Shown here one piece after another: positions 12,009-62,198 of a DNA stretch of 64,000 nucleotides. Both the position numbers and the translations under genes were made by a program. This DNA is from Tetradesmus obliquus (Eukaryota; Chlorophyta; Chlorophyceae; Sphaeropleales; Scenedesmaceae): assembly GCA_030272155.1 (NCBI GenBank), contig CP126194.1:6687501-6751500 (forward strand). Reading direction: 5' to 3'. How positions within the stretch are numbered: the first letter of the stretch is position 1; each line of letters begins with the position of its first letter. The notes beneath the pieces are model-generated. The model was not told where the DNA came from. It worked only from the letters and a program-made list of their open reading frames with translations, and made no database searches.

Positions 12009-13470
12009 ATGGCTTCGCACACGACAATGAACCGTGCCTTCCAGGGCCAAAGATCTGCCTGCGCGCAGCGTGCCAGCCGCAATGTGCAGCGCTGCAGCAG
12101 GCTCCACGTCGTTGCACAGAAGGCAGCAGTCAGCGTCCCGCCTGCCTGGAACAAGCGAGTGGTCGTGCCAGAGGTGGAGCCCAGGACTACACCAAAGGTA
12201 CGTGGCAAAGCTGCCTGCTGGTGTGACGGGATGACGCCCTGAACAGGCTGGCAGCAGCATCAGGCTGTACTACTGCTGGCATGCATAATTCACCGTCCAT
12301 ATGTTGTATTAGGCCTAAGCAACAGCGCAGATGAACACTTATGTCATACCGCAGTCCTTCAGGACTGTGCACACTCCACCAAATAGCAGAGCACATGGAC
12401 TTGGAAGGCGGGCACACATGCAGCCAGGGCAGGCTTTGCAGCAGCTTTCATGCATTGCTAGCCCAGCAAAGCCTGCAACTAAATGCATGAAACATGTTTT
12501 CTGTCATCATGTATGTAACCGTGTAGCTTAGCCTCTCTGGCAGAGCTGAGCCATCCAGCATAGTCGCACACCATCGCTCTGTTTGAGACCTAGCAGCCCA
12601 GCAACCGCAACAAATGTTGTGCAGTTACATCATGTCACTTGCTGCATTGCAGTGTCCTGCAAGCATTCAGCAGCTGGCTGTAGCGCTACGCAAGCGCACT
12701 GCAGTATAATATACTTCCCTGCAAGCACTACCTGCACTCACTGCCTGTGCTCACCTCATGCAACCACCCTTCTCTTTTGCCGCGGCAGCCCTTCTCCATC
12801 CTGGGCTCCACGGGCAGCATCGGCACGACCTGCTGCACTCACCTCCTGCACTTGCTTTCCTGCAAACACTGCTTTAATCTTGGCGCCGCAGCCCTTCTCC
12901 ATCCTGGGCTCCACAAGGCTCTCCCTCAAAGCTGTACAGTCACTTCTCCTGCACTCACATTCCTGCACTCACATTCCTGCACTCACTTTCCTGCAAACAC
13001 TGCTGTTAATCTTGCCGCCGCAGCCCTTCTCCATCCTGGGCTCCACAGGCAGCATCGGCACGCAGACGCTGGACATCATCGCGGAGCACCCAGACAAGTT
13101 CTCACTGGTGGCGCTGGCAGCAGGCAGCAACGTGGAGCTGCTGGCGCAGCAGGTGCGGCGCAGGAATGCATGCTAGACTGTGCTAGCTATGCTGGGATGC
13201 AGCAGCGGGCGGTGGCAGATGCTAGCAGGCAGCAACGTGGAGCTGCTGGCGCAGCAGGTGCGGCGCAGGAATGCATGCTAGACTGTGCTAGCTATGCTGG
13301 GATGCAGCAGCGGGCGGTGGCAGATGCTAGCAGGCAGCAACGTGGAGCTGCTGGCGCAGCAGGTGCGGCGCAGGAATGTGTGCTAGACTGCACCAGTGGC
13401 AGGCCCAGCAGCCAATAGACAGCAGCGTGGAGCTGCTTTCGCAGCAGTCGAGAAGGGTCAGCACTGCTAC

Positions 13471-13504
<34 letters not shown>

Positions 13505-14538
13505 TGCAGGCGTCAGGCAGCAACGTGAAGCTGCTGGAGCAGCATGTGCGGCGGCTGGTGCTGCAGCTATGGCTGTTGTACGCACTGTCGTTTGTAGCAC
13601 TGGCAGCGGCATCAGCTGCTAGTAGACAGCTGTATGGAGCTGCTGGCGCAGCACGTGCTGGCGCGTGGCTGGCCCTGCTGCCACTATGTTAGCAGCACAG
13701 CTACCCAGTGCCTGCACTGCTGTATGCAGCAGCAGCTGGCAGCAGGCAGCTGTGTGGAGCTGCTGGCACAGCAGGTGCTGGTGTGGTTAAGGAATGAATA
13801 GAATGATGGCTGCTGCTTGTACAGGTCAGACAGGTGGTGCTGCCAGCACTGGTGGCAGCACTCGATGTAATGCCAGCAGCAGCGGCAGTAGTAGCAGCAG
13901 CAGCAGTTTTCAGCTGACACTTGTCAGCGGCACTGCACACAGCAGTAACAGCAACAGCCAGTTGACGTTGGGGCTGGGCTGTACTGTTCAAGCGCTGCCA
14001 TGCATGCGCCGATCGGCCAGTTCAAGTTTCATCTGGTGCCAGCCATGACGGCAGCAAGGTCGACAACTTTCACAAGTAGAGTCAAGTGAAAGTGATGCCG
14101 CGTCACATTTCTAGGGTTTTGAAAGTAACTGAGTTGAAACGGTTTGCTGCATTGCATCCTTACTGTTTTGCAGGTGCGCCAGTTCAAGCCCAAGATGGTG
14201 GCCATCAGGGACGCCAGCAAGGTCAAGCAGCTGCAGGAGCTGATCAAGGACGTGTCCCCGCAGCCGGAGATCCTTGTGGGTGACGAGGGCGCCGTGGAGG
14301 TGGGTTGACCATGTTTGACCATGTTTGACCAGATTTGACCAGATTTGACCAGGCCTTGACGGGCACCATGTGTTTGCTGCATGTGCAACTTGGTCAGAGT
14401 TGCTGCGTTTCCTACTTGTGACAGCCGTACGTGCTCTGATAGCCTTCCCGGGGCGCCTCATGAACTGCCTTGTCTGCTTTGTCACCTGTGCAGTGTCACG
14501 TTCCCACTGAAGCACTTAAGGACCCACCTCCTCTCACC

Positions 14539-14575
<37 letters not shown>

Positions 14576-15267
14576 ACCAGGTCGCCCGCCACCCGGACAT
14601 TGAGGCAGTCGTGACAGGCATTGTGGGCTGCGCGGGCCTGCTGCCGACAGTCGCTGCCATCAAGGCCGGCAAAGACATATGAAGCACTCAAACCTTCCTG
14701 ATCTCTCTCACCGTCCTGCCTCTGCTGCTGCTGCTGGTGCTGCTGCTGCCCCTGCACCAGGTCGCCCGCCACCCGGACATTGAGGCCGTAGTGACAGGCA
14801 TCGTCGGCTGTGCCGGCCTGCTGCCCACCGTAGCTGCCATCAAGGCTGGCAAAGACATCTGCCTGGCCAACAAAGAGACGCTGATTGCAGGCGGGCCCTT
14901 TGTGCTGCCGCTGGCGCAGCAGCACAACGTGCGCATCCTACCGGCTGACAGCGAGCACTCGGCCATCTTCCAGGTCATGCAGGGGCTGCCTGAGGGAGGC
15001 CTGCGCAGGTGGGTGCGTCATTGTTGTGTTATGTTGTAACGTTATTTTGTCGGTTGTAGAGGCCGACAGCGAGCACTCGACCATCTTCCAGGTCATGCAG
15101 GGGTTGTGCGAGGGGGGCCTGCGCAGGTGGGTGCGCCCCTTTTTGGCTGTTGATTGGGTGTAACGTGTTGGTTTGTATGTTTGGTTGGGCTTTGCCGTAG
15201 CCTCCCTTGTATATGTCAGCTCAAACCTTTGCGCAGAAGGCACGCAGATAAGCCACACATGACATGA

Positions 15268-15346
<79 letters not shown>

Positions 15347-18300
15347 GTCAATCAACTTGTGGTTTTCACTTGCAACATCATCCTGACTGCGTCTGGTGGC
15401 GTCGTCCGCGACTGGCCTGTTGAGAAGCTGGGCGAGGTCAACGTGTGTCACTGACCCTGCTGCTGCTGCTGCTGCTGCTGCTGCCATGCTTTCACAGATT
15501 CATCCTGACTGCGTCTGGTGGCGCCTTCCGCGACTGGCCCGTTGAGAAGCTGGGCAAGCTGACAGTGTGTCACTGACCCTGCTGCTGCTGCTGGCATGCT
15601 TACACAGGATCATCCTGACCGCGTCCGGTGGCGCCTTCCGCGACTGGCCTGTTGAGAAGCTGGGCAAGCTGACAGTGTGTCACTGACCCTGCTGCTGCTG
15701 CTGCCATGCTTTCACAGGATCATCCTCACCGCGTCTGGTGGCGCCTTCCGCGACTGGCCTGTTGAGAAGCTGGGCGAGGTCACTGTTGAGCAGGCCATCA
15801 CGCACCCCAACTGGTCCATGGGCAAGAAGATCACCATTGACAGCGCCACGCTCATGAACAAGGGCCTGGAGGTGAGGCACGGGGTTTGTTGTTTGTTGCA
15901 CAGGTTTGTTGTTCATTCCTGGGTTGAAAAGTTGATGTGTGAAGCTTGTGGGCTGCGCGTGATGATGTAGGCAGAGGCTCAGCAGTATCATATCCGCGTT
16001 GCTGATGATAAGGGCCTGGTAATGTGGCATCATCATAATGCTGCCTTGCTGACACGCCGACTGGTGGTGCTGCTGCTGCTGCCGCCAGTTAACCAGGCAC
16101 ACTACCTGTACGGCATGCGACTGCCCTTCTAACGCACGAACTGCTGCTGCTGCTGCTGCCGCTGCCAGGTCATCGAGGCGCACTACCTGTACGGCGTTGA
16201 CTATGACAACATTGAGATCGTGATCCACCCCCAGAGCATCGTGCACTCCATGATTGAGACGGCCGACTCGTCGGTGCTGGCACAGGTGGGGTGCATGACA
16301 TGGGACACATGGCATGGGACACATGACATGGGACACACAGCATACGACGCATCCATGTGACACTTGATAGGGGACACATGGCATGGAACACATGGTACAG
16401 GACACATGACATGCGACACATGATACGGGTTTTGACTTGGGACACATGATGTGGGGAACACAGCGTCATGCACTCCACGATTGAGACGGTTGACTCGTCA
16501 GTGCTGGCACAGGTGGGATGCGTTGCTGGCATGCTGCAGCGTACAGAACACAGGCCCAGTAAAATGTGTCATGCAGGCTGGCCTCGCCTAACTGTGTTGC
16601 ACACCGTCACGCAGGTGACTTGTCAGTGTGCAGGCAGCAGTCACATTGGCCTCAGTCTATGTGTCAGTGGTGCCCAGCTTCTGCTCTCAGCTGAGCTGGT
16701 TCGATGCAAGAGCACGCCTCTCATGTTGCTCCCATTGCACCGCTCGCCCTTTGCTGCCCTCCTCTGCACTTTGGTATGCCTGAACTTGTGCAGCTGGGCT
16801 GGCCGGACATGCGGCTGCCCATCATGTGCACCACGCCACTGCTGTGGCGCCACGCTCTCTCTCACCACCCCAATGTGTTTTCATTGCTGCAACGTCAATG
16901 CTACAACCTGTGCAGCTGGGCTGGCCGGACATGCGGCTGCCCATCATGTACACCATGCCACTGCTGCTGCCGTGCTGCCCCGTCACCACTCCAACATGTC
17001 TGTGTTTGTTTCATCGTTGCAATCATTGCAGCTGGGCTGGCCGGACATGCGGCTGCCCATCATGTACACCATGTCATTGTGCCACGCCACACATCCATCA
17101 TCACCATCCTATGTGTTGTTTCCATCCTTACAACTTCACACCCGCAGCTGGGCTGGCCGGACATGCGGCTGCCCATCATGTACACCATGTCGTGGCCGGA
17201 GCGCGTCAACACCAGCGAGGTGACCTGGCCCCGCCTGGACTTCTCCAAGGCCAGCAGCCTCACCTTCAAGGCCCCGGACCACGCCAAGTACCCCAGCATG
17301 AACGTGGCGTACGCGGCGGGCAGGGCGGGCGGCACCATGACCGGCGTGCTGAGCGCAGCAAACGAGCAGGTGCGAGGAGCTTGGTGGTGTTTTTTTGTGG
17401 GGCGTGTGTTTAATGGCACAGCGTGTGTTGCGTTTATGGCATGGTTAGCTGGTTGTGGTGTTGACCTGGCCCCGCCTGGACTTCTCCAAGGCAAGCAGCC
17501 TCACCTTCAAGGCCCCGGACCATGCCAAGTACCCCAGCATGAACGTGGCGTACGCAGCGGGCAGGGCGGGCGGCACCATGACTGGCGTGCTGAGCGCAGC
17601 AAACGAGCAGGTGCGGCAGGGTTTCAGGGTATTGTGTGTTCTAATGTTGTGCAGGTTGTTGGTGGTTGAGCGCTGAATGAGCAGGTGTGTGTATGCCAGA
17701 CCACGCCAAGTACCCCAGCATGAACGTGGCGTATGCGGCGGGTAGGGCGGGTGGCACCATGACCGGTGTGCTGAGCGCAGCAAACGAGCAGGTGCGAGGA
17801 GCTGGGTGGTGTGTTTGTGGGTCATGTGTTCAATGGCACAGCGTGTGTGGCGTTTATGGCATGGCTTGCTGGTCGTTGTGTTGGGCTGGCCCCGCCTGGA
17901 CTTCTCCAAGGCAAGCAGCCTCACCTTCAAGGCGCCAGACCACGCCAAGTACCCCAGCATGAATGTGGCGTACGCGGCGGGCAGGGCGGGCGGCACCATG
18001 ACTGGCGTGCTCAGCGCAGCAAACGAGCAGGTAGGGGGCGTGCGGGTTGAGTGGGCTGGCGGCACAGTGGCCGGCGTGCTCAGTGCGGCTACGAGTCGGT
18101 GCAGACGTTCATTTCATCCCTATCCACCTCTCCAGACCCCCAAAAATGAGGTCCGCAGAACACGCTGAAAATGGGTGCAAAACTTTTTCTCCCTATAGAC
18201 CTCCAGGTCGGCTGACTGGACAGAATGCCGACGTGTGCTCCTAACACTGCTGTGTGATGCTGCTGCTGCTCCTTGCAGTTGGTGCCAATGCTCATCCACC

Positions 18301-18678
18301 ACCGCTCTCACACTTCTGTGCGATTCTTCTTCTGCTGCCTGCAGTCTGTGCAGATGTTGATTGACCACCAGGTCGGCTACCTGGACAGTATGCTGGCGTG
18401 TTGTCCCAGGATGCTGACGTCGTATGTCTCTTTATCTGTCCTGTCTTGCTGTCTGGCAGTCCGTGCAGATGTTCATCGACCACCAAATCGGCTACCTGGA
18501 CATCATGAAGCTCAACGAGGCCTGCTGCGAGGCACACGAAAAGGAGCTGGTGTCGATGCCAAACCTGGAGGAGATTGTGCACTACGACCAGTGGGCGCGG
18601 CGCTGGGTGAAGGAGGCAGTGGACAGTGGCAAGTTCAAGCCGAAAGTGGCTGTGCAGGCGGCAACAGCAGCAGCCTAA
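12009..18678 (+). CDS. DXR: 1-deoxy-D-xylulose 5-phosphate reductoisomerase, plastid
   Basis: DXR converts DXP to MEP with NADPH, the committed step of the plastid MEP isoprenoid pathway. Eight exons (12009-12197, 13024-13152, 14174-14299, 14761-15008, 15718-15871, 16169-16285, 17148-17369, 18460-18678) sum to 1404 nt, or 467 residues, the normal plant length. The first ~63 residues are Ser/Arg/Ala-rich with few acids, a transit peptide. The NADPH-binding [13 protein letters not shown] is near residues 67-79. The metal ligands ADSEHS (D211, E213) and MNKGLE (E282) are present, as are [31 protein letters not shown] and [12 protein letters not shown]. All catalytic motifs are intact, so the gene looks functional. 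Introns carry many extra partial copies of exon edges (listed separately). I chose exons that keep both junctions and the frame. Confidence 0.96.
12787..12925 (+). repeat. Partial copies of DXR exon 2 acceptor edge
   Basis: Two fragments at about 12780-12827 and 12885-12915 repeat the intron end (GCCGCAGCC) and the first 30-40 nt of exon 2 (CCCTTCTCCATCCTGGGCTC). They lose similarity before the rest of the exon. The complete exon starts at 13024. These are intronic decoys: neither has a matching donor, and neither continues into the NADPH-binding region. Confidence 0.9.
13100..13800 (+). repeat. Tandem copies of DXR exon 2 donor edge
   Basis: The 3' part of exon 2 encoding [14 protein letters not shown] plus its donor is repeated. 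Two close copies, about 100 bp apart, end near 13261 and 13370. More diverged ones occur around 13420-13445, 13513-13560, 13615-13660 and 13740-13790. Similarity falls with distance from the authentic exon. The block also contains a short CAG run (13479-13503). Confidence 0.85.
14300..14353 (+). repeat. 10-bp minisatellite TTTGACCANN
   Basis: Five consecutive units of the type GTTTGACCAT/GATTTGACCA begin immediately after the donor of DXR exon 3 at 14300. Confidence 0.85.
14581..14682 (+). repeat. Partial copy of DXR exon 4 acceptor edge
   Basis: A CTG run, CACCAG and the first ~100 nt of exon 4 (reading [20 protein letters not shown] and on to KAGKDI) are duplicated 180 bp upstream of the real exon at 14761. 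The copy then hits an in-frame TGA at 14680-14682, so it cannot replace exon 4. Differences from the real exon are mostly synonymous third positions. Confidence 0.92.
15060..15135 (+). repeat. Partial copy of DXR exon 4 donor edge
   Basis: The end of exon 4, from ADSEHS to GGLRR with the donor GTGGGTGCG, is repeated in the following intron. It has a few substitutions, for example CEGG in place of PEGG. A second potential donor is thereby created at 15129. Confidence 0.9.
15268..15345 (+). repeat. (GCC)n-(GCT)n triplet array in DXR intron 4
   Basis: About sixteen GCC triplets run directly into about nine GCT/CTG triplets, immediately upstream of the first decoy copy of exon 5. Confidence 0.9.
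15346..15717 (+). repeat. Three extra copies of DXR exon 5 acceptor edge
   Basis: Each unit of about 105-120 bp comprises a CTG run, CATGCTTTCACAG or similar, then ~60 nt of exon 5 encoding [18 protein letters not shown], then GTGTGTCACTGACC and another CTG run. Copies begin near 15370, 15500 and 15608. The authentic exon follows at 15718 and alone continues into the substrate-binding segment. The first copy is the most diverged (GGVVRDW). Confidence 0.93.
16070..16168 (+). repeat. Partial copy of DXR exon 6 acceptor edge
   Basis: A CTG run, GCCGCCAG and the segment CACACTACCTGTACGGC near 16085-16120 mimic the start of exon 6 (GTCATCGAGGCGCACTACCT) at 16169, which is preceded by its own CTG run. 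Confidence 0.85.
16290..16462 (+). repeat. GGGACACATGRCAT minisatellite in DXR intron 6
   Basis: About ten imperfect 14-16 bp units of the GACACATG type follow the donor of exon 6. Confidence 0.85.
16463..16520 (+). repeat. Partial copy of DXR exon 6 donor edge
   Basis: The stretch reads [14 protein letters not shown] followed by GTGGGATGC. It copies the last ~45 nt of exon 6 ([14 protein letters not shown]) and its donor, placed after the minisatellite. Confidence 0.9.
16785..17147 (+). repeat. Three extra copies of DXR exon 7 acceptor edge
   Basis: The acceptor plus the first ~40 nt encoding [11 protein letters not shown](Y/C)T recurs near 16795, 16916 and 17033 before the authentic exon at 17148. 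Each copy carries a CAG acceptor, so three alternative 3' splice sites exist. Only the last continues into [11 protein letters not shown]. Confidence 0.93.
17456..18110 (+). repeat. Three extra copies of DXR exon 7 body and donor edge
   Basis: The segment encoding [20 protein letters not shown] through [13 protein letters not shown] plus donor recurs at about 17461-17611, 17697-17791 and 17888-18031, with a scrap near 18055-18095. Intervening intron is copied too (around 17395-17450 and 17815-17880), so the unit is exon plus intron, about 200-420 bp. Copies differ mainly at synonymous positions. Confidence 0.93.
18195..18420 (+). repeat. Extra copies of DXR exon 8 acceptor edge
   Basis: At 18345-18392 the sequence reads [16 protein letters not shown] after a CAG acceptor, close to the authentic [16 protein letters not shown] at 18460. 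A more decayed copy lies near 18198-18235. Each includes part of the upstream intron. Confidence 0.88.
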
Positions 18679-18689
18679 GGGTTGTTTGG

Positions 18690-19260
18690 ACACTTACCCT
18701 AAGCAGGGTTGTGGCGGGAGCGGTTGAGAGCGGTTGAGAGCGGCAGGCGGCAACCGCAGCAGCATAAACAGCCGCAGGGCTGCGGTGCACGTGTGTTTGC
18801 TGTGGTGGGTGGTGCTGGGTGAAGGAGGCTGTTGAGAGTGGCAAGTTCAAGCCGAAAGTGGCTGTGCAGGCAGCAACAGCAGCAGCCTAAGGGTTGTGTT
18901 ACCGCTAATTAGGGTTGTGGCAGGAGCTGTGGAGAGAGGCAAGTTCAAGCCGCGTGTCGCGGTGCAGGCGGCAACAGCAGCAGCCTGATTATACCCCAGT
19001 TCAGTGCTTTGATGCTGTTTGCGGGAGCTGGGAGGGCAGAGAGTTGAAGCCCTCCCAGAGCAGGGGCTGTGCAGGCGGCGACAGCAGCAGCATTACTGAT
19101 GCTTCGCGGCTCAGCTGGATCTACAGCTGCTGCTGCTGCTGCTGCTGCTGTGGCAGATAGCTGCCAGCAGTGCTTGTAGTGCTTTTGCGGCCTGGGTGAG
19201 GGGTGCAGCAGGCTGTTAACAGCGGACATGCAGGGCGCAGCCGCAGCAGCTGCTGATGCA
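18690..19260 (+). repeat. Four progressively decayed copies of the DXR C-terminal segment
   Basis: After the stop at 18676-18678, copies of the last coding ~60-75 nt ([16 protein letters not shown] plus stop) appear at about 18822-18890, 18935-18988 and 19040-19095, with a remnant around 19200-19250. The first is almost identical and keeps its TAA. The second has [11 protein letters not shown] with TGA, the third only traces. These lie downstream of the gene and are not exons. Confidence 0.85.
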
Positions 19261-23373: not shown

Positions 23374-23425
<52 letters not shown>

Positions 23426-23751
23426 TTGTCGTGAATGAAGTGGTCAGCTATGTTCTGTTTGTGAGGCCGTTTACCATGCATGCATGGTTGCCAGCAGCAG
23501 CAGCAGTAGTGCCTGGAGCTGCAACACGCACAGCATACACACCCGCTCCTCCACACCGCATGTTGCATGACGTACTTTATGACAATGTAACACTGTCACT
23601 ATTTGCTCCATAACATCCCTCACCTGTGTGGATGCAGTAGAAGTCGAAGGCCTTCTTGAAGGCGGGGATGTAGGGCTTGCTCCACGCAGCAGGCATGATG
23701 CTCTTCAGCGGCTTCACGCTGCGCGCCAGCTGGCGCGTCACCATGTTGCCT

Positions 23752-23789
<38 letters not shown>

Positions 23790-26303
23790 GTGAAGCTTAG
23801 CAGCAGCAGATCAACTGCGCACAGAATGTATGCTTCACATTGCTGCAGCAATGCTGCAGGAAGTGCCTCTCTTGCGTCGGATATCCAGTGCTTTGCAGGC
23901 TGCACCACTTGCAAGGAGCAGCTGCTTGCTGACAGGCAGCATTGACGTACTTCCGCATGCAAAGTGCTGCCACACATTGCACACTTCAGCTTGCTTTTGC
24001 AGCCTGTCTTACCTGCCAAAAGCATCTGCTCGCTGATGGGCACAGCATTGCTGCACTTCCCCGAGCACAACTGCTACTAACAATGCACGCATATTGTTAT
24101 TTAACAATGATGTGCGCAGTGGCCTCACCTGCGAAGAGCAGCTGCTCGCTGATGGGCAGCACCTTGGGCCCCAGCTTGGTCATGTTGCCCTGCAGCGCAC
24201 GCGTGCCTACCTGCGGGTGACAACAGCAGCAGCAGCAGCAGAAGGTTGAGGGACAGCACGATGGGAGGAACGCAGCGCAGGCGACACACTCCAACAAGCA
24301 CCAGCATGCTGCTGCATGCTAATGTCACATGCTGTTCCCAAGACATGCTGATTTCAGGAGCAGGCTGTGTGGATTCATCATGCGGTGTCACCAGCCGTCA
24401 GCGCCTGTGTCACTCACCCCCACGATGTCCTTGGTCAGCCTAACCCCCACCAGCTTCTCCTCATCCTCAGTCTGCAGGCAGCAACAGCAAGCACACGCAC
24501 AAGCATGAGCATAAGCATGTTTGTTTGCTACTCCAAAGTGACAGACACAGCCTTGAACATGAAACAAAGCAGCATGTGACATCCTCGTCCTCTGTCTGCA
24601 GGCAGCAACCACAGCAAGCATATACAATTGTCACATTCACTTGAGGACATGCTCAACACAAGCATGACATGCTGACACCAGAGTTGCCATGCACAGCCAT
24701 GCAGTGTTGCTAGTCATGTCACAGCAGCAGCAGCAGCAGCAGCAGCCGCACCTGCATCACGCAGTTGAAGGCCACATCATCCTTGGCCAGGTTGGTGCGC
24801 ACGATGTGCTTCACCCAGTACTTGGACCTGCAGTAGCAGCCAGCACCCAACCACAATTCAGTGCTATGACTTTGATCGGCTCTTCTTCTTGGTGATGATC
24901 CCGCCGAGGCACTGACGCTGCTGCTGCTGCTGCTGAGACGCACTGTGCAGCCAGGTGAGCTGCAGCAGCCCCCGACAGCTGCGCTGCAGGGGTTGCAGCC
25001 CCGCCCTATGTGCCTGTTCAAACAATCGCACCTGCGTGTGTCGCGGGGCTTGTTGGTGAGCAGCACAGCAGCGCCGTTGGCCCTGAACAGGCAGTTGATC
25101 AGCAGCATGGAGGGGTCCTTGCCTGCAGCAGCAGCAGCAGCAGCAAGATGAGAAGATGCTCCGCCACACAGAAAAGCAACCAGCAACACAGATTGCTGCT
25201 GTGGCTGCTGACAAGCGCATGCATCGCCCACAACACCCTACAACTTGGCCACCCCAAAGTACTGCAGATAGGAATGAGGGCAGGGTATACGCTGTGCAGA
25301 CATTCCGGCTCTGAGTACACCTCTCGTGCATCTACTGCTTTGAGCCTTTCTAGCACACCTACGCTGCAGTGTCTGTGGGTAACACGTGTTACCTAGGATA
25401 CTGCAGCGTAGGTGTGCTAGAAAGGCTCAAAGCAGTAGATGCACGAGAGGTGTACTCAGAGGCAAAATGCAGCAAGTCTGCAGGGAGTTGTAGTAGGTGC
25501 GCATTGACATTAACCAGCAGGCAACCACTACAACACCCCACAGACTCGCACTTGAAATCAAGCAAAGCTGTTAAGGCAGCCCCGACCAGAATCAGATTGA
25601 TGGAAACATGTCACGCAAGCATTTAGCACAACACAAACAAGCACCACACATACGGACTGTGGACATAATAACCAACGCACCTGCGTAGAAGGCGTTGGTG
25701 ATGTTCTCGTGGGACACCACCAGCGCGTAGCTGTTGGGGTACAGCTCCAGCATCTCACGAGCCAGGTCAATCGCAATCACGCCAGCGCTGCAGCCCATGC
25801 CACCCTGGAAGCAGCAGCAGCAGCAGCAGCAGGGGCACAAGTGTGCAGCAGCAGGAGTTGAGACACGTGAGCAGAACAGCGAGCTGTGTGCTGGGCACGG
25901 GTCAGCAGTGAGCGTGTCCAGTGTCTGCTGCTCATTCCGTTCAACCACAACATAACACGTTTTAACACTAAAAATAACACGTGCCCTCACCAGAGAGTAG
26001 CCCTTGGTGTTGCCGCCCATCTTGAAGTGGTTCATGATGGTGGTGCTGAGGCTGGGCGTGGGGTTGAACAAGCTGCTGTTGGTGATGACAAAGTTGATCT
26101 GGCTGGCCTTCACACCAGTCTTCTGCAGCAGCTCCTCAACGCAAGAGAAGCAGGTGGCGGCAAACTCAAAGCGCGCAGCCTCCATGCCTGTGGGCAGCAG
26201 CAGCAGCAGCAGCAGCGGCAGAGATTAGTCACGTTATGAGTGCAGTGCCCAGCAGCTCCTCAACACAAGAGAAGCAGGTGGCAGCAAGTGCGCAGCCTCC
26301 ATG

Positions 26304-26335
<32 letters not shown>

Positions 26336-30281: not shown

Positions 30282-30317
<36 letters not shown>

Positions 30318-43605: not shown

Positions 43606-43643
43606 CACATGTCTAGGAAAGCTGCAGCTTTCCTAGACATGTG
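43606..43643. repeat. 38-bp perfect palindrome
   Basis: The left half is CACATGTCTAGGAAAGCTG and the right half is its exact reverse complement, with no loop. It lies just upstream of the first candidate exon (43469-43556) of the large minus-strand gene. It could be a cruciform, a dimeric protein-binding site or a remnant of an inverted duplication. Confidence 0.93.
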
Positions 43644-44892: not shown

Positions 44893-44930
<38 letters not shown>

Positions 44931-47298
44931 CACAACAGTGTCTGCGCACATGTGTACAACAGGGACGGTTCTAAGTATAAGAAATACTGGACAGTGGCTG
45001 TGTGTTTCGTGTGACTTGACAGAGTTGCAGCTGAGCAGAACAGCTGTGCCAGCAGTATGCTGCGGCTCAGTCATTTGTTCACCGGTGCAACAGTCGTTGA
45101 GCGTGCACAATAATGCTCAAATACTGTCTTGACTGCCTGGCAATGCACTGCAGAGGGAAGTCACATGGGTGCTCGATGATGTCATTGCAGTGAGTGGCAG
45201 CTGCAACCGCCAGCAAAGATTGCAGCTCATGCAACTGCCTGCTTGCAAGGCTTGCTCAAAGTTCCTGCGGCTGGCCATTACACTGCATGTCCACCCTTTG
45301 CCGTCTGTTGCTTCACAGGCATGGCCACCCTCCAGCTGCATATGCTATTGCAACAGCATGTATGATGTTTTGCTTGCGACTTGCAACACTGCCCTCTCAC
45401 GTGCTGCCCGGTTTGCTGCTGCCCTCTGGGGTGGCGTGAGCAGCAGCAGCAGCATGCATGCTACTGCAACATAACAAATGACAAGCTGCGTACTACCCTC
45501 TCAACTGCTGCCCGCGGGGTGCGGCTGCCTGCAGGCGTGGCGTGAGCAGGAGCAGCAGCAGTGGCAGCCCTGCTGCTGGCAGCAGCTGGAGCTTGAGCTG
45601 CAGGCAGCAGGCAGCAGGGGCAGGCCCACAGGGGACTGGCAGGTGCTGCTGAGGGCGCCGCTGCAGCAGCTGCAGCAGCTCTGGCGGCTGCGGCTGCAGG
45701 TGGGTGCATGCACAGCACATAGCAGGGGGTTAACGAGGCCACCTTTTACAGCAGGATATGTAGTGATCGGAGCAGTGGCTGTTTCTCTCAACAGCTCTGG
45801 CAGCTGCGGCTGCAGGTGGGTGGGACGTGTTGTAACACATGCGGCGGCAGCAGAGGGCGCTGTTGTTGCTGCAGCTGCTGGTACAACAGTGATACCTCAA
45901 CTGCTAAAGTTGTGCACAAGTTGTGCCCAAGTTGTGCACAGCACGTGCTGCTACAAGCGCAGCAGGCGCGCTTCCTGCAAGCTGGCGAGAAGCCGTGTTT
46001 CTTGCGCATGTGGACATTGCGTCGCAGTGCTGGGTCGAAAATGCTCCACCTATAATTACCATGCTGCTGCGTGTTTTGCTTGCAGGAACGTGTGCCATTC
46101 CAGTACCTCATCCACACAGCACACTGGCGGGATCTTGTGCTGTCAGTGGGACCCGGCATTCTCTGCCCGCGCCCTGAAACAGAAGCAATGGTCGACCTCG
46201 CAGCAGCAGTAATAGCAGCAAACCCAGCGCTAGCAGCCGCGCCATGGGCAGATCTGGGCACTGGCAGTGGAGCCATAGCGATTGGCACAGCGCGGCTGCT
46301 GCAGTCCATGCAGCAGGATCCGCAGCAAGCTGGCCGGCAGCGCAAGCAGCAGCAGCAGGGTGTACAGCAGCCGCAGGTGTGGGCCGTAGACCTGAGCCCG
46401 ACTGCAGTTGCGTATGCAGCAGCGAATGCGGAAGCTTGTGGAGTGCAGGATATGCTGCAGGTGCTGCGGGGCTCATGGTTTGAGCCCCTGCAGCAGCAGC
46501 AGCAGCAGCAGCGCGGCTGGCTGGGTGGTGTGCTGAGCAACCCGCCGTACATTCCAGCTGTGCAGATGCAGGGGCTGCAGGCAGAGGTGGGGCAGCATGA
46601 GCCGTGGAGTGCACTGGATGGCGGCCCAGAGGAGGGGCTGGATAGCTTGCAGGTGAGAGGGGAGTGGGGTTCAGGAAAGGGTGTTGAAAGGTTTCAGCGT
46701 AACAGCGAATTGCGGAAAGGAAAGTTTCCTGCAGTTTGAGACTGATGTGCTGCTCTTGCAGGCGTGGCATGTCCACACAGGAGACACAGATGCAAGTTGT
46801 GCCTGGTGTGTGCCATGCAATTCTCGCCTGCTAACAGCGCTGCCTACCGCCTACTGCTGAAAGTCACTGCGGAATTTGCCGCTGCTGCATGAATCAACAT
46901 ATGCAGGTGATCTGCAGTGGTGCTGCTGACATGTTGCTGCCTGGTGGTTTCCTCGCACTTGAGGTGAGCTGATGTACAAGGAAACCATTGCATGTGCCAA
47001 GAAGGTTTTCAAACAGCCCAACAGCCAGCCGATAGTAGGACGGAACTCAAAAATCGGTTGTACTGCTGTGCGCAACAAATACTGTGATATGCCTGCGTAG
47101 CACATTGCAGGCGCAGACTTTGCAGCTGACAAGCTGGCTGTTGTGCACTTCCTGCAGACGGCTGGCTCAGAGCAGGCGCCCCTGGTGCAGCAGCTGCTGC
47201 AGGAGCAGCAGGCAGGCGGGGCTGCAGCTTTCAGGGACGTCCGCGTGCACGAGGACTGCTATGGAGTGCCTCGATTTGTGAGCGCCACCAGGAATTAA
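44546..47298 (+). CDS. PrmC: Peptide chain release factor N5-glutamine methyltransferase, organellar (PrmC/HemK)
   Basis: The enzyme methylates the Gln of the GGQ motif in organellar release factors, using S-adenosylmethionine. Six exons (44546-44884, 45154-45189, 45535-45699, 46086-46652, 46907-46963, 47158-47298), all phase 0, sum to 1305 nt, 434 residues. The N-terminus (MQALGRCCSRPCSLACYARS) looks organelle-targeting. The family signatures are in order: PFQYLIHTAHWRDL and CPRPETE (209-213) in the release-factor-binding part, DLGTGSGAIAI (236-246) for SAM, and the catalytic SNPPY with NPPY at 332-335. The end, YGVPRFVSATRN, is typical. Gln-rich insertions flank the methyltransferase motifs (around residues 267-275 and 316-322). 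A short duplicate of the exon 3 end lies at 45791-45825. Confidence 0.93.
45785..45830 (+). repeat. Copy of PrmC exon 3 donor edge
   Basis: CAACAGCTCTGGCAGCTGCG followed by GCTGCAG and a GTGGGTGG donor repeats the last ~27 nt of exon 3 (CAGCTCTGGCGGCTGCGGCT) with its donor, about 118 bp downstream. Confidence 0.88.
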
Positions 47299-48063: not shown

Positions 48064-51000
48064 ATGCCAGCTCATAGACACCACCACAGCCATGTGGCAG
48101 GAGTGACGCCATCATGTAGTGCTGGTACTGCCGCCTTCGCCTGCTGCTGCTGCAGGCCCTGCCAGCCGCCACAGCATGACTGCTGCAGCAGCAGCAGCAG
48201 CAGCACTGCTGGCAGCACCCAGCAGCCCGACCAGCACCCGCTCAGCAGCAGCAGCAGCCACAGGCAGCCCGTAGCGCAGCTTGACTATGCGGCACTGCAG
48301 CAAGCAGCCTCCGCAGCACGTGCAGACAGCAAGCGGAAGTCGGCTGCAGCAGCCGCAAGCACCACAAGTACCCCTGCAGGTCTCGAAACACCGACTACAC
48401 CAAAGAGCAGCAGCACCAGCAGTTGCAGCAGCGTCACTGGATCACAGCAGGGTTCAAAGGTTGCTGACGTTGTCATTAACGTGTCAGCTAAAGGTCCACT
48501 GGGGTGCAAGTCCATCTTCCAGCTGTACAGTAGCCGGCAGCGTGCACTCATCCTAGCTATTGTCAGCCTGGCAAGCGTGCTGGTGCCACTGTCAGACACT
48601 GGTGAGTGCTACAGCAACAGCATGACAAGGCTCTGCAGCCAGCAGGGACTGTGCACACCATATGGTGCGCAGTGCTTCTGGATGCTACCAGGCTAGTATC
48701 CTATGCTTGGCCTGCACTCCTTGCAGCAATCATGTAGTTGCATGCAGCACTATGTTGCTCCCATCTCACACATATTTACATGTCAGAACAACAGCCACAA
48801 TAGCGACTATCAACTGGCTGAGCGCGCACCTGCCAAGCTCATGCCTCATGCTCGCCAGCAGCAGTTGCCAATACCACTCTCCATGACGTTTTGTCGCTGA
48901 CCACACACTATGTGTGTGGCTGCTGCTGCCTGCGCCTGCAGTGTACCTGCCAGCGCTGCAGCCCATCCAGCAGGAGTTTGCAACCTCGCAGCAGCTGGTG
49001 GCCAGCAGTGTGGCAGTGTACATGTTTGCAGTCGGCCTGGCTGCGCTGTGCCTGGGGCCTGCTAGGTAAGCAGCAGCAGACATACAGCATGCTGTCATGA
49101 ATCTGGTATGTCAGGCAGTGTGGCCGTGTACCTTTTTGCTGTGGGCCTGGCTGCACTGTGTCTGGGGCCTGCCAGGTAAGCAGCAGCACGCACACAGCCT
49201 GCTTTCATGGTGTTGGTACGTCAGTGAGTGCGGCCATGTGCATGTAGCATTCGGTCTGGCTGCGCTGTGCCTGGGGCCTGCCAGGTAAGCAGCAGCACAC
49301 GCAGCATGTTGATATGGTGTTGGTGCGTCAGCAGTGCGGCGGTGTACATGTTTGCAGTCGGCCTGGCTGCGCTGTGCCTGGGGCCTGCCAGGTAAGCAGC
49401 AGCACACACAGCATGCTTCAAGCATGACAGGCTTTCATGAATTTGGTGCGTCAGTCAGTGTGGCCGTGTACATGTTTGCAGTCGGCCTGGCTGCGCTGTG
49501 CCTGGGGCCTGCCAGATGTGCCTGAGGCGGCTGCGGGATACTAGAACTGCTGGCAGCAGCAATGTGCATCTTGTTGAGTTCATTGATATCCTGTGGTGAC
49601 GAGCCAGTAGGACCCCGTCCCCCCTGGTAACCAGTAGATGTGTACTGCTGCCGCCTGCCTGCAGTGACCGCTTTGGGCGCAGGATCGTGTACCTGCTCAG
49701 CACACTGGCCTTCATCGCCACCTCACTGGTGAGTGCGCCTCCAGGGTCATGTACCGTGCACCACAACCGCAGCTGTCCACGCTGCGCAGCTGTTTGCTGC
49801 TTATGTAAGTCTCAGCCATCTTGACATACGACAGATGTGCAGCACAATCTGCTGCATGGGGTCTCACCATGCAAACAATCAAAAACATTCCACCTCATGC
49901 TGCGGGGTTGGAACTTGCAGGGCTGCATCTTTGCGCCAAGCATCGGCCTGCTGGTGGCGTTGCAACTGAAACCAACTGCATGGGCTGTCACAATTCGAAA
50001 CTCTGAACCTCGTGCGGCCGGGTTTGACTCTGCAGGGCTGCATCTTTGCCCCAAGCATCGGCCTGCTCGTTGCCTTCAGGGCGCTGCAGGGCGCAGCAGT
50101 GGCCGGCTATGGCGCCACTGGCTCGGCCATCATTGCTGACGTGTACGCGCCACATGAGAGGGGCGCAGCCATGGGCATCAGCACTATACCTATGGTAAGC
50201 GTGGTTGGATAGGCTTCAAGTTGTGCTGCTCATGCGTGTGAAAGACAAGTCCATACAAGATCAATGCACAGCTGCGCACCTTCAAGCAATGCGAGTGCAC
50301 ACACTGAGTTGGTGGTGCATACACTGCAGCTGTCACAGCAACACTGTGTTTGGCAATGAGAGGGGCGCAGCCATGGACATCAGCACCATCCCTATGGTGA
50401 GGAGCAGCGAGGCTGCTGTACCCTGCTGCTTGTGCGCTTATGCACACTAGACTGGTGTTGCACACTATGTGTCAGAGATTTGAACACCCTGTTGCGCTGC
50501 GGTTCTAATGAGGTGGAACTCAGCCAGGCTGTGTTTACCACATCAAGTACACCACCAGCACGCGCTCTACGCTGCCAGAAACTGACTATTCTATGTCTTT
50601 TTGTTTCATTCTGCTGCTGCTGCTGCTGCTGCTGCCCCCCCCCCCCCCCCTCAGCTGGTGGGCCCCATCCTGGGCCCCATCCTGGGAGGGGCGCTGAGCC
50701 AGGCCTTCACCTGGCGCAGCACCTTCATAGCTATCGCCATGTACGCTGGCGTTGTCATCCTGCCGCTGCTGGTGCTGCTGCCTGAGACGCAACACTACAG
50801 GAGGCTGCGCAAGCTGCAGCAGGCTGACCCTGCGGCAGCAGCAGCGGTGCAGGGATGCGAGTGCATACTTGGGAGTCCGCCTGTGTTCAAGGCACCTTAC
50901 TACCCATTACAGGTGACCATCTGCAATATTACTGGCCCAGTGGCATGTTGTTGCTGCTGCATTGCTGTTGCCAGGCGGCAAGCATTGTGCAACATTTTAA

Positions 51001-51559
51001 GCACTCGGCAGATGACCTGCCAGTGCCGCTATCAGGCTGGCTGCCCGGCAGGCCCCCAAGTGTCGCATGTGGCAAACGAAGCACCAAAGCGTTGCTCTGC
51101 ATCTGTATGTGCTGCTGCAGGTGCTGGCGGAGGGTGGTGTGGTGCTGCACGCAATCGTTGCGCTGCTCAGCTTTGCCAGCATGTTCTGCAGCCGTCACCA
51201 GTGTGCCATGTGTGCTGCCTGTGATTGGCGTTGCTGCTGCTGCTGCAGGTGCTGGCGGAGGGCGGCGTGGCGCTGCACGCCATCGTTGCGCTGCTCAGCT
51301 TTGGCAGCATGTTCTGCAGCCTCACTGAGATGCCGCTGTTCCTGGCGGTAGCGCCCTACAACCTGAGCCCGGCACTGACGGGTGAGTGCAAAATTGACTT
51401 TGTCAAGACATGCGGTGTTTGCTGCAAGCAGCAGCACTGTGCTGGCCTGCTGCAGCAATGCTGCGATGAGTATAGCATCTGGTGAAAGCACAATTGCTGG
51501 TTAATTTGCAACCATCCCAGCCTTGCCACGGCAGCCAGTTATGCCGCTGACCCTGCTGC

Positions 51560-51613
<54 letters not shown>

Positions 51614-54730: not shown

Positions 54731-54788
<58 letters not shown>

Positions 54789-56857
54789 GCAGCAGCGGCA
54801 GCGGCAGCGGCAGTGATGCAGGCAGCTATCTAGTTCTAGGTGCATGCTGTGCTTGGTGCGTCTGGACACGTGTTGTGCAGCAGCAGGAGCAGCAGGAACA
54901 GGATGTGAGGTCATGCATGCAGTGCAAGTGCTGCTCTGCCACCCCATGCGTCATTCAATTGAATATGAATGCTGCCCCCCCCCCCCCCAAGCTGGTGGGC
55001 CCCATCCTGGGCCCCATCCTGGGAGGTGCGCTGAGCCAGGCCTTCTCATGGCGCAGCACCTTCATCATGGTGGCGATGTATGCGGCGCTCATCATACTGC
55101 CCATGGCCGCATTCATGCCGGAGACGCACCAGTACAAGAAGGTGAGCCATCTGATTCTGATTCAAACAGTGTCAAACTTGAGCAATCCACTGCTGGATGT
55201 GTGATGTGTGATTGTCCATGCCGGATGATGGTTTGCTGCTGTGACAGCCGCATAGCGCAACGTGCCGCTGTTCGCATCGGGGTATCCGGCCTGCTGCGCT
55301 TCGGGCTGCCCCTTCCCGCTGCGAACATCCCTTTCTGCCTGCTAACTAATCCGCATCCATTTTTTCTCCCTGCGCGCAGCTGCGCCGCATGCACAAGAGG
55401 GACCCTGAGGCCGCAGCAGAAGTGGAGGAGGCAGCAAGCATCTTCTCAACCCCGCCAGTCTTCAAGGCGCCCCACTACCCGATCAAGATCCTGTGCGAGA
55501 AAGACATTGTGCTGCACGCAATTGTGGCGCTGCTGCTGTTTGGCAGCATGTTCTGCAGCATCACTGAGCTGCCGCTGTACCTTGCGGCAACACCTTACAA
55601 CCTGAGCGCAGCAATGATTGGTGAGCAAACTGTTGCTTGTTGCGGTTGTCCAGTGCTTTTGAGCTGATCTAGCAGTGCACTGGTGCGGCGATATTGCTGT
55701 CAGTTGTGCATGCGGTGCCAGCGTCAGTACTGGCATGCTGCGCACGTGTTTGTGTTGCGCTGCTGCTGCAGTTGATGTTTCTGTGGCTGGTTCCTGTTCC
55801 TGTCCCTGACCCGTATGCCGTCATTTTTCCGCTGCCTGCAGGTCTATGCTACATCCCTGCTGGTCTTGCCAGCATGATTGTGAGCCCCCTGGGAGGGCTG
55901 CTCTCAGACAAGGCAGCAGCAGCACACCCAGGCAAACCCCTGGTCCGCCTGGTCTACAACAACGTCATCTCAGGCGTCCTCATGCCAGCCAGCCTGTTGT
56001 TATACGGCTGGGTCATGCAGGCGAAGCTGCACCTAGCAGTGGTGCTGGTCTCGCAGTTTGCGATTGGCGTGGCGCTTGCTTCGTATCTGCCGGCGATATT
56101 TGGGTACCTGACGGCGCTGAAGCAGAGCGCGGCGGCGGCAGCGGCGGCGGGCGTGCACAGCGGCATGTTCATCATGTCGGGAGTGGTGAGTAGCATTAAA
56201 GAAGGATCAGGGAAGACAGATCAAGGCTGTTGACTGCGTGTTGTCAGCAGGACAAACCTGTGAGCTGCCGCCTGCAGCATCTGTAACACCGCAGAATCTG
56301 CCTGCGCCCAGCCCTCAACCACCCTGTGTCACAGCTCCCTTTCTGTCCTTGCCTGGTTATGATCTTCAATCCCTCGCGTCCTCACTCTGATGCTGCTGCT
56401 GCTGCTGCTGCTGCCGCCTGGCTGCTGTGTACTCCCTGTGTGCGTGCAGCTCATCCTGGTGGCGTCAGCAGCAGCCAGCGCCATGGGCATGGGCCACCAC
56501 ACACAGCTTTCACCAGCATCTGGTGCTCACATCTGCTGCTGCTGCTGCTGCTGCTGCCGCCTGCCTGTGTAATGTGTGTATCTGCAGCTCATCCTGGTGG
56601 CGTCAGCAGCAGCCAGTGCCATGGGCATGGGCCCATTCTTCACACTACTGGCGGGCCTCAACCTGCTCACCACAGGCGCAGCAGCGCTGCAGATCTTCCG
56701 GCACAGAGAGGCCAGCCGAGAGATGATCCGGTCAGCAAGCAGGGCCCAGCTGGCAGCAGCAGCAGCAGCAGCAGCAGGGACGGATGAGGCTGGGGAGTCA
56801 ACAAGCAGGAGTAGCGGGGAGGATGTGGAGAGTGGAGCTGGGGGTGCCAAGGAATAG
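53092..56857 (+). CDS. MFS transporter, DHA1-like, copy B (tandem paralogue)
   Basis: Eight exons (53092-53525, 53891-53954, 54351-54404, 54604-54708, 54992-55141, 55380-55620, 55842-56185, 56588-56857) are phase-consistent and sum to 1662 nt, 553 residues. It is clearly paralogous to the preceding gene: VYLPALQSIQQEF, DRFGRK (146-151), LVGPILGPILGGALSQAF (220-237), TPPVFKAPHYP and the C-terminal AAAGVHSGMF. The N-terminal hydrophilic part is about 75 residues shorter, with the start taken at the first ATG of the open frame. A later ATG is possible. The intron pattern differs: the first intron of copy A is absent, introns occur after RALQ and after QYKK that copy A lacks, and copy A's intron before VLAEGG is missing. 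The tail is Ser/Glu-rich. Probably an exporter in the same membrane system as copy A; substrate unknown. Confidence 0.93.
53962..54066 (+). repeat. CAG/CGG array after the MFS-B exon 2 donor
   Basis: A run of about thirty CAG triplets with CGG and TAG interruptions starts about ten bases into intron 2. On the coding strand it is CAG, the opposite of the CTG runs seen at 3' splice sites. Confidence 0.93.
54727..54818 (+). repeat. CAG array after the MFS-B exon 4 donor
   Basis: About twenty CAG triplets, then CGGCAG variants, beginning some 20 nt inside the intron. Confidence 0.93.
56385..56587 (+). repeat. Copy of MFS-B exon 8 acceptor edge with its CTG tract
   Basis: At 56390-56497 a CTG run, GTGCAG and CTCATCCTGGTGGCGTCAGC (LILVASAAASAMGMG) duplicate the start of exon 8, which is itself preceded by a CTG run at 56534-56555 and starts at 56588. 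The unit is about 140 bp and includes intron. Confidence 0.94.
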
Positions 56858-59451: not shown

Positions 59452-62198
59452 ATGACAGCACCACACAGCAGCAGCAGCAGCACCAGCAGCAGCAGCAGCG
59501 CCTTTTCATCTTCAGCAGCAGCACGCCCGCTGGCCCTCAAAGTGGCACTGTGTGCCATGGTTGCCATTGGCTTTGCTGACATGTACACCTACAGCATGCC
59601 AGTTGCCTTTCTGGGCCAGGTGCTGGCAGCGCAGGATGCCAGCAGTGTTACAGTCATTATTGCACTGGTGAGCGCCCCAGACAATCGGTCATGGCTTGGT
59701 TGCTGTGTGGTTGTGCTGTTGCAGCCAGCATGCACACACGGGCAGCAGCAGTGCGTGAAAGTGCTTGTAACAAAAGCAGCAGCAGAAGCAGCGCATGCTG
59801 CCAGCCGTCATGCTAGCTTTTTGCTGCTGCAGAAGTTGAACCAGCAGTGTAAACTCGGCAGCAACTCATAACTCATGACTGCTTTGACAGCTAGTGCTGC
59901 AACACAACACTTCGCCACAAGCACAACCTCCCACATGCGCTGCTGCTGCTGCTGCTGCTTTGTGTGTTGCAGGGCTTGGAAGGCATTGCAACCAGCATCA
60001 TGGCAGTCCTGGTGGGTTTCATTTCATGCACTGCGCTGTGCATTCTTTGTAAACAGCTGCATCAGATGCCCCATCTGCAAGGCTCACAGCTCTGCATTGC
60101 AGGCTTAGCATTTCTCATTGTGCATGCACACTTCATGGCACTTGAAACAGCTCACACATTTCAGCTGCACCCTAAGCTCATGATCGTGGCTGTCTACGTG
60201 TCTGCAGGTGCTGCTGAGCCAGTCCCTACCAGCAGTGAGCCGGCTGTCTGCTGCTGCCAAATGGTGGCTGGTCATTGGGGGCCAAGCAGCCAGCGTGGCA
60301 TCATCCCTGCTGCCGGCGCTGCTGCCAAAACCTGAGGTGGTTACTGCCTGCCGTGCACTGCACGGCGCAGCAACAGCAGGTGAGGACCGCTGCTTAGGCT
60401 GGGCCACACTGTGCTGGCTGCTGTCTGTTTTGCTTACTGCTGTGCAGCAAAGCTGTCCGGACAGGATCCAAGGTTGCACTGTACCGCAAGCCGTGTACCC
60501 TCTCATGCTGTACTGCCTGACGTTGTGCTGCCTGCTGCTGCTGCTGCCCTGCAGTGTATATGGTGTACTGCCTAATCCTGCTGGTGGAGCTGCCACATGT
60601 TGTACTGCCTGATGTTGTGCTGCCTGCTGCCTGCTGCTGCTGTCCTGCAGTGTACATGGTGTACTGCCTAATCCTGCTGGTGGAGCTGCCACATGTTGTA
60701 CTGCCTGATGTTGAGCTGCCTGGTGCCTGCTGCTGCTGTCCTGCAGTGTACATGGTGTACTGCCTAATCCTGCTGGTGGAGCTGTGCCCGCCATGCCACC
60801 TGGCCCTAGGCATTGCAGCTTTCAGCGCAGGTGGGGCTGCAACCACAGCACAGCTCAAGTTTCCAGATAATTGCAACAGTTCAACACCTGCCTTGACATT
60901 GCAGCGCACAGGGCAGCTCAGGCCAACGCCGAACCTCACGCATCTCACCACGATCAATGTTGTTTTGCACTTGAGGCAGCAGTCGTGCTCATACCAAATC
61001 CGCCTGCTCATGATGGGTACACTCTGCTTGCTGCACCACATGCTACGCAGGCTGCTCTGCTGGCGACAGCCTGGGCCCTGTGCTGGGTGCTGTGGCCTTT
61101 GACAGGGGAGGCGGCCTGCCGGCAGCTTTCCTGATGCAGACAGCCGTCAATGCAGTGCCCCTGCTGCTGGCGCTGCTGGTTGTGCCTCTGTGGGTGTGGT
61201 TGAAGAACGACCCCACTGCTGTCGCCAGCAGCAGCAGCAGCAGCGGCAGCGGCAGCAGCTGCAGCGGCGGCAGCATGTGCTTAAGTGACAGCAGCCAAAC
61301 CAATCATCATGAGCTGCCCCGCATGCTCCGCTGGGACTCCGCTTGCAGCAGCTATGACAGGTCAGCAGCATGTCACCCTCACAAGCCAGCCGACCAGTGC
61401 TGCAAGAACAAAGAGCTGTTTGCGGACGGAGATTCAGATGATGTGACGGTTTGCAGCGACTGCAGCGCAAGCCTACAGTGCTTGGATGCAGGCCGCTGCC
61501 ACGCGCCTAATCACAAAGCAGCAGCAGCAGCTGCTGCCGCAGGTGATGCAGACACGCAGCCTGTGCGCGACGTTAACGCTAGCAGCCGGCGGCACATGGA
61601 CAGTGCCCTGGACATCAAGGCCGGGCATTTCAATGCAACACCAGCAGCAAAGCTGAAGCAGGATGACAGTGAGCTCAATTCTGGCAAGGCAACGAACCAG
61701 GAAGAGCAGCGGCAGCAGCAGCAGCAGGGTCTGGGCGGCCAGCAGAGTTCAGCGCTGGATGTCCGCGCTGTGTTTGCCACGGTGTGTGATGCTGTGGTGG
61801 CCGGGCAGTGCCTGCTGGTGCTGCTAGAGCAGGCAGCAACAGGGGCGGTGGTGGTGCTGCTGCCTGCAGTGGCGGGGCTGCCTACGTGGCTGATGGGCGT
61901 GCTGTACATCGCAATGGTGAGTCTCTTGCTTTGCAAGGAATAGGATTTGCAAAGCGTAAAGCCTAGGGGTGTTGTATGTGGCCAGTGACGGGGCTGCCTA
62001 CCTGGCTGATGGGGGTGCGGCACATTGCCATGGGGAGTGCTGTTTGATGTATACCCAATATGCGCACATGTCTGCACGCGGCGCTGCGTATGTTGGTGTG
62101 ATTGCGCGTGCTGCATTTGCAGCAGCGCAGCAGCAGATATGTGAGTGAGTCTCGCCATGCCTGCACTGCCCAGCCATAGGTGCTGTTCTGCTGATGTC

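Follow-up and report, generated by a model that had tools for sequence, protein, structure and literature searches.

The window analysed here is a stretch of 64,000 nucleotides from the green alga Tetradesmus obliquus (assembly GCA_030272155.1, contig CP126194.1, positions 6,687,501 to 6,751,500 of the forward strand). The introns of its DXR gene contain direct copies of the gene's own exon edges, in which a piece of exon recurs together with the adjoining splice site. The gene and its copies are listed below with their positions in the window; the single coordinates are those of the copied junctions.

12009..18678, plus strand: DXR gene, with exons 12009-12197, 13024-13152, 14174-14299, 14761-15008, 15718-15871, 16169-16285, 17148-17369 and 18460-18678
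12713..12915, plus strand: two acceptor-edge copies of exon 2, at 12789 and 12892
13211..13778, plus strand: donor-edge copies of exon 2, at 13257, 13362, 13545 and 13774, the later ones decayed
14542..14681, plus strand: acceptor-edge copy of exon 4, with 11 differences in 33 codons, at third positions only
15061..15135, plus strand: donor-edge copy of exon 4, at 15126
15318..15676, plus strand: acceptor-edge copies of exon 5, at 15498 and 15608, plus one near 15379 without AG (by eye)
16041..16114, plus strand: acceptor-edge copy of exon 6
16459..16521, plus strand: donor-edge copy of exon 6, at 16512
16783..17075, plus strand: three acceptor-edge copies of exon 7, at 16794, 16916 and 17032
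17462..18032, plus strand: three donor-edge copies of exon 7, at 17610, 17791 and 18030, with private differences that are synonymous only
18333..18387, plus strand: acceptor-edge copy of exon 8, at 18345, and a weaker one near 18195
18811..19091, plus strand: copies of the stop-codon edge in the 3' flank (no splice junction), where 18599-18733 and parts of it match at 18811, 18922 and 19062

The spliced translation of the eight DXR exons was an uninterrupted frame of 467 amino acids. Acceptor edges were copied at exons 2, 4, 5, 6, 7 and 8, and donor edges at exons 2, 4, 6 and 7. A public protein, P0001, was identical to the 467-residue translation over its full length and contained none of the copies. 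This protein is taken to be transcript-derived because the DXR locus has seven introns, and it shows that the outer, true splice sites are used. Among the best protein matches, the closest one with a species name came from Scenedesmus sp. PABB004 (87%). A genome search with the protein stretch of exons 4 and 5 returned 7 matches, all at the DXR locus, indicating that the copies are local. A second DXR gene as their donor was rejected, since this search found one locus.

The pattern of the exon 4 acceptor copy, with 11 third-position differences and no other over 33 codons, was reached in none of 1914 neutral simulations. By eye, the frame of this copy (14581-14683) was open and then ran into a TGA, so that splicing to the copy would give a truncated product. 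The three acceptor-edge copies of exon 7 showed 2, 0 and 0 differences from the exon per 42 exon bases. In the 65 intron bases upstream, neighbouring units were identical at 38/55, 42/51 and 44/52 positions (69-85%), with 20-28 gap columns. The donor-edge copies of exon 7 carried 9 private differences, every one at a third position. Upstream in the first of them (17449-17610), an in-frame AG was seen by eye, and AG-GTGACC occurs inside the exon, so that a variant splice adding about four residues can be imagined. This AG is missing, by eye, from the last full donor copy.

Comparison of the window with itself yielded 68 matches, all direct and none inverted, a part of which linked two neighbouring transporter genes. 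After filtering, 57 direct pairs spaced at most 700 bp apart were retained. They formed 29 families, 24 at exon edges, 2 intron-only and 3 outside genes; one family classed as intron-only (60504-60784) looks by eye like an exon edge overlooked by the gene finder. The original prediction, made from the letters of the window, had counted more than twenty such events and had proposed a self-comparison; its count was right.

For a wider sample, 25 loci of 10 kb were taken at fixed coordinates from the genome (104,662,953 bases in 17 contigs, the window lying on contig 4), with at least one locus on each of the 17 contigs. Exons were modelled with a simple purpose-built gene finder that was first trained on DXR and KCS exons; eight KCS loci served for training only and were excluded from every repeat count. 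Repeat pairs were dropped if they were at least 40% simple repeat, shorter than 36 bases or spaced more than 700 bp apart. From the models, 27 predicted exons that were copies and all predicted exons below 30 nt were removed, and the hand-made DXR exons replaced the predicted ones.

Local repeat pairs in the window and the 25 loci (314 kb) were direct in 192 cases and inverted in 2. They formed 97 families, of which 72 touched a coding edge, 5 were intron-only, 19 lay outside predicted genes and 1 was exonic; the sampled loci alone held 48, 3, 16 and 1, respectively. Exon-edge copies with splice sites are thereby confirmed as real, also outside the window. At least one intronic copy was present at 60 of 519 modelled junctions, giving 88 junction-copy pairs in total. 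Of 74 copies, 70 were intron-sided, in agreement with the predicted position of acceptor copies upstream and donor copies downstream of the exon, and GT or AG was retained in 65 of the 74. Any tandem duplication that spares the exon yields this side rule. Two of the earlier statements have to be narrowed. The duplicated unit does not always straddle an exon-intron junction, as the DXR stop-codon edge was copied and repeats occur outside genes (5644-6632 and 63734-63923). The pattern, described as window-wide, is not special to the window, given the 48 edge families in the sampled loci.

The repeats at 5644-6632, which are 90-97% alike and lie 135, 434 and 569 bp apart, make up a tandem array away from predicted genes that would be a useful non-exonic control for the duplication process. 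A long satellite-like array with a period of about 210 bp, and also of 422 and 616 bp, was observed at 2337-5511 of a sampled 10-kb locus without predicted exons (L020). An Rfam scan gave no match.

The smallest spacing within a family was 74-170 bp in 78 of the 97 families, and only one family was spaced below 79 bp. This size class comprised 59 of the 73 edge-touching families (one exonic family included) and 19 of the 24 others. That edge-touching and other families share this size class points to a single duplication process. Units of 40-50 bp were never detected, those of 60 bp were detected in 42-70% and those of 70 bp in 85-88% of cases, and no claim is made below about 60 bp. CTG tracts were found near 78 of 192 events (0.41), compared with 0.47 for random spans. 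The suggested anchoring at CTG repeats was thus not borne out, and microsatellite slippage was rejected because the tracts were no nearer to the events than expected by chance.

Two null models were used for the placement of the repeats. In the first, repeat pairs were moved at random within each locus (400 shifts). The observed edge share of 0.83 exceeded the expected 0.63-0.65 and was reached in none of the 400 shifts. This test overstates the chance overlap with edges because two-unit spans are moved through an already duplicated genome, and targeting inferred from it alone was rejected. In the second model, one unit was placed in a gene before duplication, followed by drift of introns and copies, with exons changing almost only synonymously. 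The substitution rate was the measured one, and the indel rate was close to the measured 0.10 gap openings per substitution. The simulated edge share was 0.39-0.44 over all detected events. For partly aligned events it was 0.33-0.54, with the top values when old events were counted, and no subset exceeded 0.54. Observed families within genes were at edges in 72 of 77 cases, a large excess over the simulated 39-44%. Edge copies are far commoner than neutral duplication with decay predicts, a hint that spare exon edges can be kept in stock within introns.

The excess could arise at formation, if breaks or strand switches clustered at exon-intron junctions, for example at the edge of an exon nucleosome, and duplicated about that length. 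In favour of such targeting are the 72 edge and 5 intron-only families, where at most 54% at edges would be expected, and the size of the units, which is near nucleosome scale at edges and elsewhere (the nucleosome idea is our own). The youngest repeats do not follow this expectation: among 20 full-length tandem pairs of at least 80% identity, 9 lay at edges and 3 in introns, compared with 8.9 and 3.1 expected from the shift test, which is lenient and was applied here to small numbers. When compared with the simulated share of 0.44, the same 9 of 12 gave p 0.03, and the sample is too small to separate an excess at birth from an excess by survival. Targeting alone would also leave the conserved splice consensus and the synonymous lean of the copies, described below, unexplained. 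Targeted formation is unproven and in our judgement rather unlikely; preferential retention fits as well. The earlier claim that duplications favour junctions is upheld by the counts of families and not as a statement about their formation.

The junction profiles, drawn from exons of at least 60 nt and intron-side copies, showed where the similarity ends. Identity on the exon side next to the junction was about 0.9 (mean of the 88 pairs, both edges). At donor copies, it was 0.95, 0.98, 0.90, 0.79 and 0.90 at intron positions +1 to +5 and 0.50 at the sixth base; at acceptor copies, it was 0.93, 0.91, 1.0 and 0.87 at positions -1 to -4 and 0.61 at the next base. More than 30 bp into the intron, identity was 0.24-0.35. 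In 29 of 86 cases (19/43 donors and 10/43 acceptors), the homology stopped within 1-12 bp beyond the junction, that is, about a third of the copies are sharply bounded. In neutral simulations, restricted to units with at least 30 intron bases, the same end point was found at frequencies of 0.00, 0.00, 0.01 and 0.06 up to a per-lineage divergence of 0.20, and of 0.17 at 0.20-0.30. Room for at least 30 intron bases was available in 28 of the 29 sharply bounded cases, and their aligned identity was 80-98%.

The sharp drop of identity just past the splice consensus, together with the intact GT or AG in 65 of 74 copies, would fit a direct role in splicing, in which copies are kept by selection as alternative edges, decoys or switches for unproductive splicing. 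Such a role appears quite unlikely. The DXR protein is identical to the translation without any copy, and a splicing role would be expected to conserve bases, not codons. At the inner ends of the copies, AG was present in 15 of 42 donor copies (background 0.41) and GT in 15 of 46 acceptor copies (background 0.34), no more than background, indicating that the copies are mostly single edges and not whole exons. The view of the copies as complete small exons was therefore rejected, although a few single copies may be bounded on both sides. The use as alternative exons that had been suggested for the copies is unsupported for DXR on the same two grounds, the protein P0001 and a second splice site at chance level.

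The exonic parts of the copies were under partial coding constraint. In 60 edge entries outside DXR, where some exon edges were entered more than once, third codon positions accounted for 196 differences and the other two positions for 148. The third-position share of 0.57 compares with simulated shares of 0.43-0.44 for a neutral copy beside a constrained exon and of 0.79-0.84 for two constrained copies; it was 0.62 for sharply bounded pairs and 0.56 for the others. Private changes of the younger copies at multi-copy junctions were synonymous in 24 cases and not in 15, against a neutral share of 0.26 (p 3e-6). Similar results were obtained without the exon 7 donor copies (20 vs 15, p 9e-5) and without DXR (17 vs 13, p 4e-4). 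For the oldest copies, the numbers were 29 and 49 (p 0.02), or 25 and 49 without the exon 7 donor copies (p 0.08). The age order in these comparisons was guessed from divergence, and the counts may include some changes of the real lineage. Stop codons arose from 3 of 118 private changes, near the neutral share of 0.029. The earlier remark that the differences are often synonymous is sustained, as their number exceeds the neutral expectation.

Plain neutral tandem duplication, with an edge bias that comes only from the conserved exon half being recognised by the reader and by BLAST, is very unlikely and was already disfavoured. The pooled divergence of 15.6% at noncoding positions and 6.7% at first and second positions is about that of a neutral copy beside a constrained exon, and the excess in the shift test is modest. 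The decay-aware simulation, however, placed at most 54% of families at edges, where 72 of 77 were observed, and neither the end points of homology nor the third-position share fits this explanation.

The synonymous lean could also have been present from the start. If unequal exchange between homologues had set the exon edge of a second, diverged haplotype or hybrid parent beside the resident one, the copy would carry synonymous differences from its origin. Over 71 edge entries including DXR, the third-position excess was not heterogeneous (p 0.26), as a common pre-existing divergence would give, and the exon 4 copy of DXR has the pattern expected of such an origin. The strain DOE0152z was assembled to 208 Mb, compared with about 109 Mb for UTEX 393 (PMC5552973), and an assembly of about twice the size suggests, in our own inference, diverged haplotypes. 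Several copies 96-98% alike nevertheless carry first- or second-position differences (window 13211, 16790 and 38112; sampled locus L011, 2129), and the four-copy arrays would require many haplotypes. This origin is considered unlikely.

A related explanation is an assembly artefact, a chimeric consensus of two diverged haplotypes or strains, and here too the structured synonymous differences look like those between haplotypes. The size class of the edge copies is, however, shared by repeats away from exon edges, four-copy arrays show graded divergence and the DXR exons themselves are clean. Duplication by assembly is ill-suited to copies about 70-98% alike with structured differences, as the original prediction had argued, and an artefact is highly improbable.

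The explanation that we tentatively prefer, with a probability somewhat short of even, combines position-blind tandem duplication, purging from exons and exchange that keeps edge copies exon-like. Small direct tandem duplications, mostly of about 75-170 bp, would arise frequently wherever the DNA is accessible, possibly by fill-in during break repair or by slippage. Duplications inside exons would break the protein and be lost, and only 1 of the 97 families was exonic. A duplication spanning an edge would leave the true exon in place and add a spare exon edge with its splice site to the intron. Copies within introns or between genes would decay freely, whereas edge copies may keep trading sequence with the true exon, either through gene conversion or through unequal exchange in which the array shrinks and expands again. 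A spoiled edge copy would then either be overwritten or cost its carrier a working gene, and introns would grow as arrays of edge copies of mixed ages. We infer both the formation and the exchange from the pattern of the repeats.

Position-blind duplication with exonic loss would account for the direct orientation, the size class and the side rule. It does not explain the edge excess, the sharp boundary and the third-position lean. These would follow, in kind, from exchange, because exchange would overwrite the copies or test them in a functional position and leave the flanking intron free.

Several observations weigh against duplication followed by exchange. The exon 7 donor copies of DXR fit a simple tree by eye and show no trace of having converted the true exon, although mosaic tracts were not sought systematically; exchange therefore cannot be very fast. 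By our own estimate, exchange that slow should impose only weak second-order selection, which does not account well for the purely synonymous differences of the exon 7 donor copies and the exon 4 copy. The 20 young tandem pairs described above matched the shift expectation almost exactly. The further flank of the sharply bounded copies was barely closer to the true flank than other flanks were (31 pairs, mean percentile 0.60; 0.89 for the other 57 pairs), so that a tandem origin cannot be claimed for these copies; several of them were spaced at least 200 bp apart. For the sampled loci by themselves, the test on younger copies was marginal (9 vs 11, p 0.05). Finally, exon models outside DXR and the Pfam-supported genes depend on our own gene finder.

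In a stronger version, spare edges would be actively maintained genome-wide: they would serve the true exon as partners in recombination and be subject to second-order purifying selection, and some intron parts would thus evolve like coding sequence without ever being translated. This version is possible but on the doubtful side. If edge copies are retained by exchange, there would be a route of intron growth that depends on exon sequence, and conserved intron sequence need not imply a function of the RNA. Gene finders would call false exons in such genomes, like the 27 copy exons called and removed here. The copies also make up a large natural collection of decoys, many of them 75-170 bp away from the real splice sites, on which the spliceosome's choice of the outer site could be tested.

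Edge copies in the other genes of the window were as follows.

24582..24620, minus strand: short repeat of 24458-24493, at an exon edge predicted for the KCS region
26250..26334, minus strand: acceptor-edge copy in the KCS gene (family by Pfam PF08392), predicted exon 25991-26187
28554..28758, minus strand: two acceptor-edge copies of predicted exon 28129-28466, at 28612 and 28750
29351..29729, minus strand: donor-edge copies of predicted exon 29845-30051, at 29689 and 29496
36310..36345, minus strand: short donor-edge copy of predicted exon 36420-36528
38112..38159, minus strand: acceptor-edge copy of predicted exon 37919-38044
45388..45454, plus strand: edge copy of a predicted exon near 45535, in a region earlier assigned to PrmC (name unconfirmed; predicted protein without Pfam match)
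49115..49515, plus strand: four donor-edge copies of predicted exon 48942-49065 in the first MFS transporter (Pfam PF07690), at 49175, 49284, 49391 and 49515, the last without GT
49892..49961, plus strand: acceptor-edge copy of the exon starting at 50036
50356..50401, plus strand: donor-edge copy of the exon ending at 50194
51110..51198, plus strand: acceptor-edge copy of the exon starting at 51249
56391..56495, plus strand: acceptor-edge copy of the exon starting at 56588, second transporter
60504..60688, plus strand: two copies upstream of a probable exon edge near 60747, third transporter (exon by eye; missed by the gene finder, hence counted as intron-only)
61983..62038, plus strand: donor-edge copy of the predicted exon ending at 61916

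Pfam analysis of five predicted proteins named KCS and one MFS transporter, and 3 of the 5 had no match. The MFS transporter gene at 48939-52245 and the gene at 53399-56667 are neighbouring paralogues, with matches 70-86% alike about 4.1-4.5 kb apart, and their edge copies are at different junctions. Exon-level matches to PF08392 (KCS/type III polyketide synthase) numbered 71 and were spread over 12 of the 17 contigs, which suggests a family large for an alga.

Several known systems resemble the edge copies in part. In tandem or mutually exclusive exons, whole exons with both splice sites have copies in introns. The copies described here share the position in introns and the splice sites, but mostly consist of one edge. 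Introners or other dispersed mobile elements were rejected, as the same sequence was not found at unrelated genes in the search made with the DXR exon 4-5 stretch only. No description of such junction-edge copies was recognised in the open-licence literature searched.

For the duplication step, small tandem duplications arising from break-end fill-in by CST and Pol alpha-primase have been described in human and mouse cells (PMC8355091). The repeats in T. obliquus are likewise direct, short-range tandem copies that need no long homology (192 direct and 2 inverted pairs; spacing of 74-170 bp in 78 of 97 families), and break-end fill-in is a plausible source of them. The duplications treated there are among insertions below 100 bp, and the abstract, introduction and discussion of that paper make no link to exon edges.

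For the effect on gene structure, the nearest relatives are cases of intron gain. Tandem genomic duplication of exon segments bearing AGGT is a genuine route of intron gain according to PMC3443670 and PMC2891723, the first of which cites Hellsten 2011 and Gao and Lynch 2009 for the model. Among novel intron positions in Drosophila, attributed to tandem duplication or intron sliding, duplicated exon sequence with splice motifs likewise alters intron structure; there, 5 of 31 cases in the set are concerned and the intron positions are new (PMC2891723), whereas here 60 of 519 junctions are affected and the positions are kept. The AGGT model (PMC3443670) shares with the edge copies the small direct duplication of exon sequence with splice motifs and the new candidate splice sites. 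Intron gain by tandem duplication was rejected for the present repeats: 70 of 74 copies are situated beside an existing junction, within an intron that was already there, and 1 of 97 families is exonic. In the AGGT model the unit lies within an exon and creates a new intron between the copies; here it spans an existing junction, the intron is lengthened, the protein is unchanged and no intron is gained.

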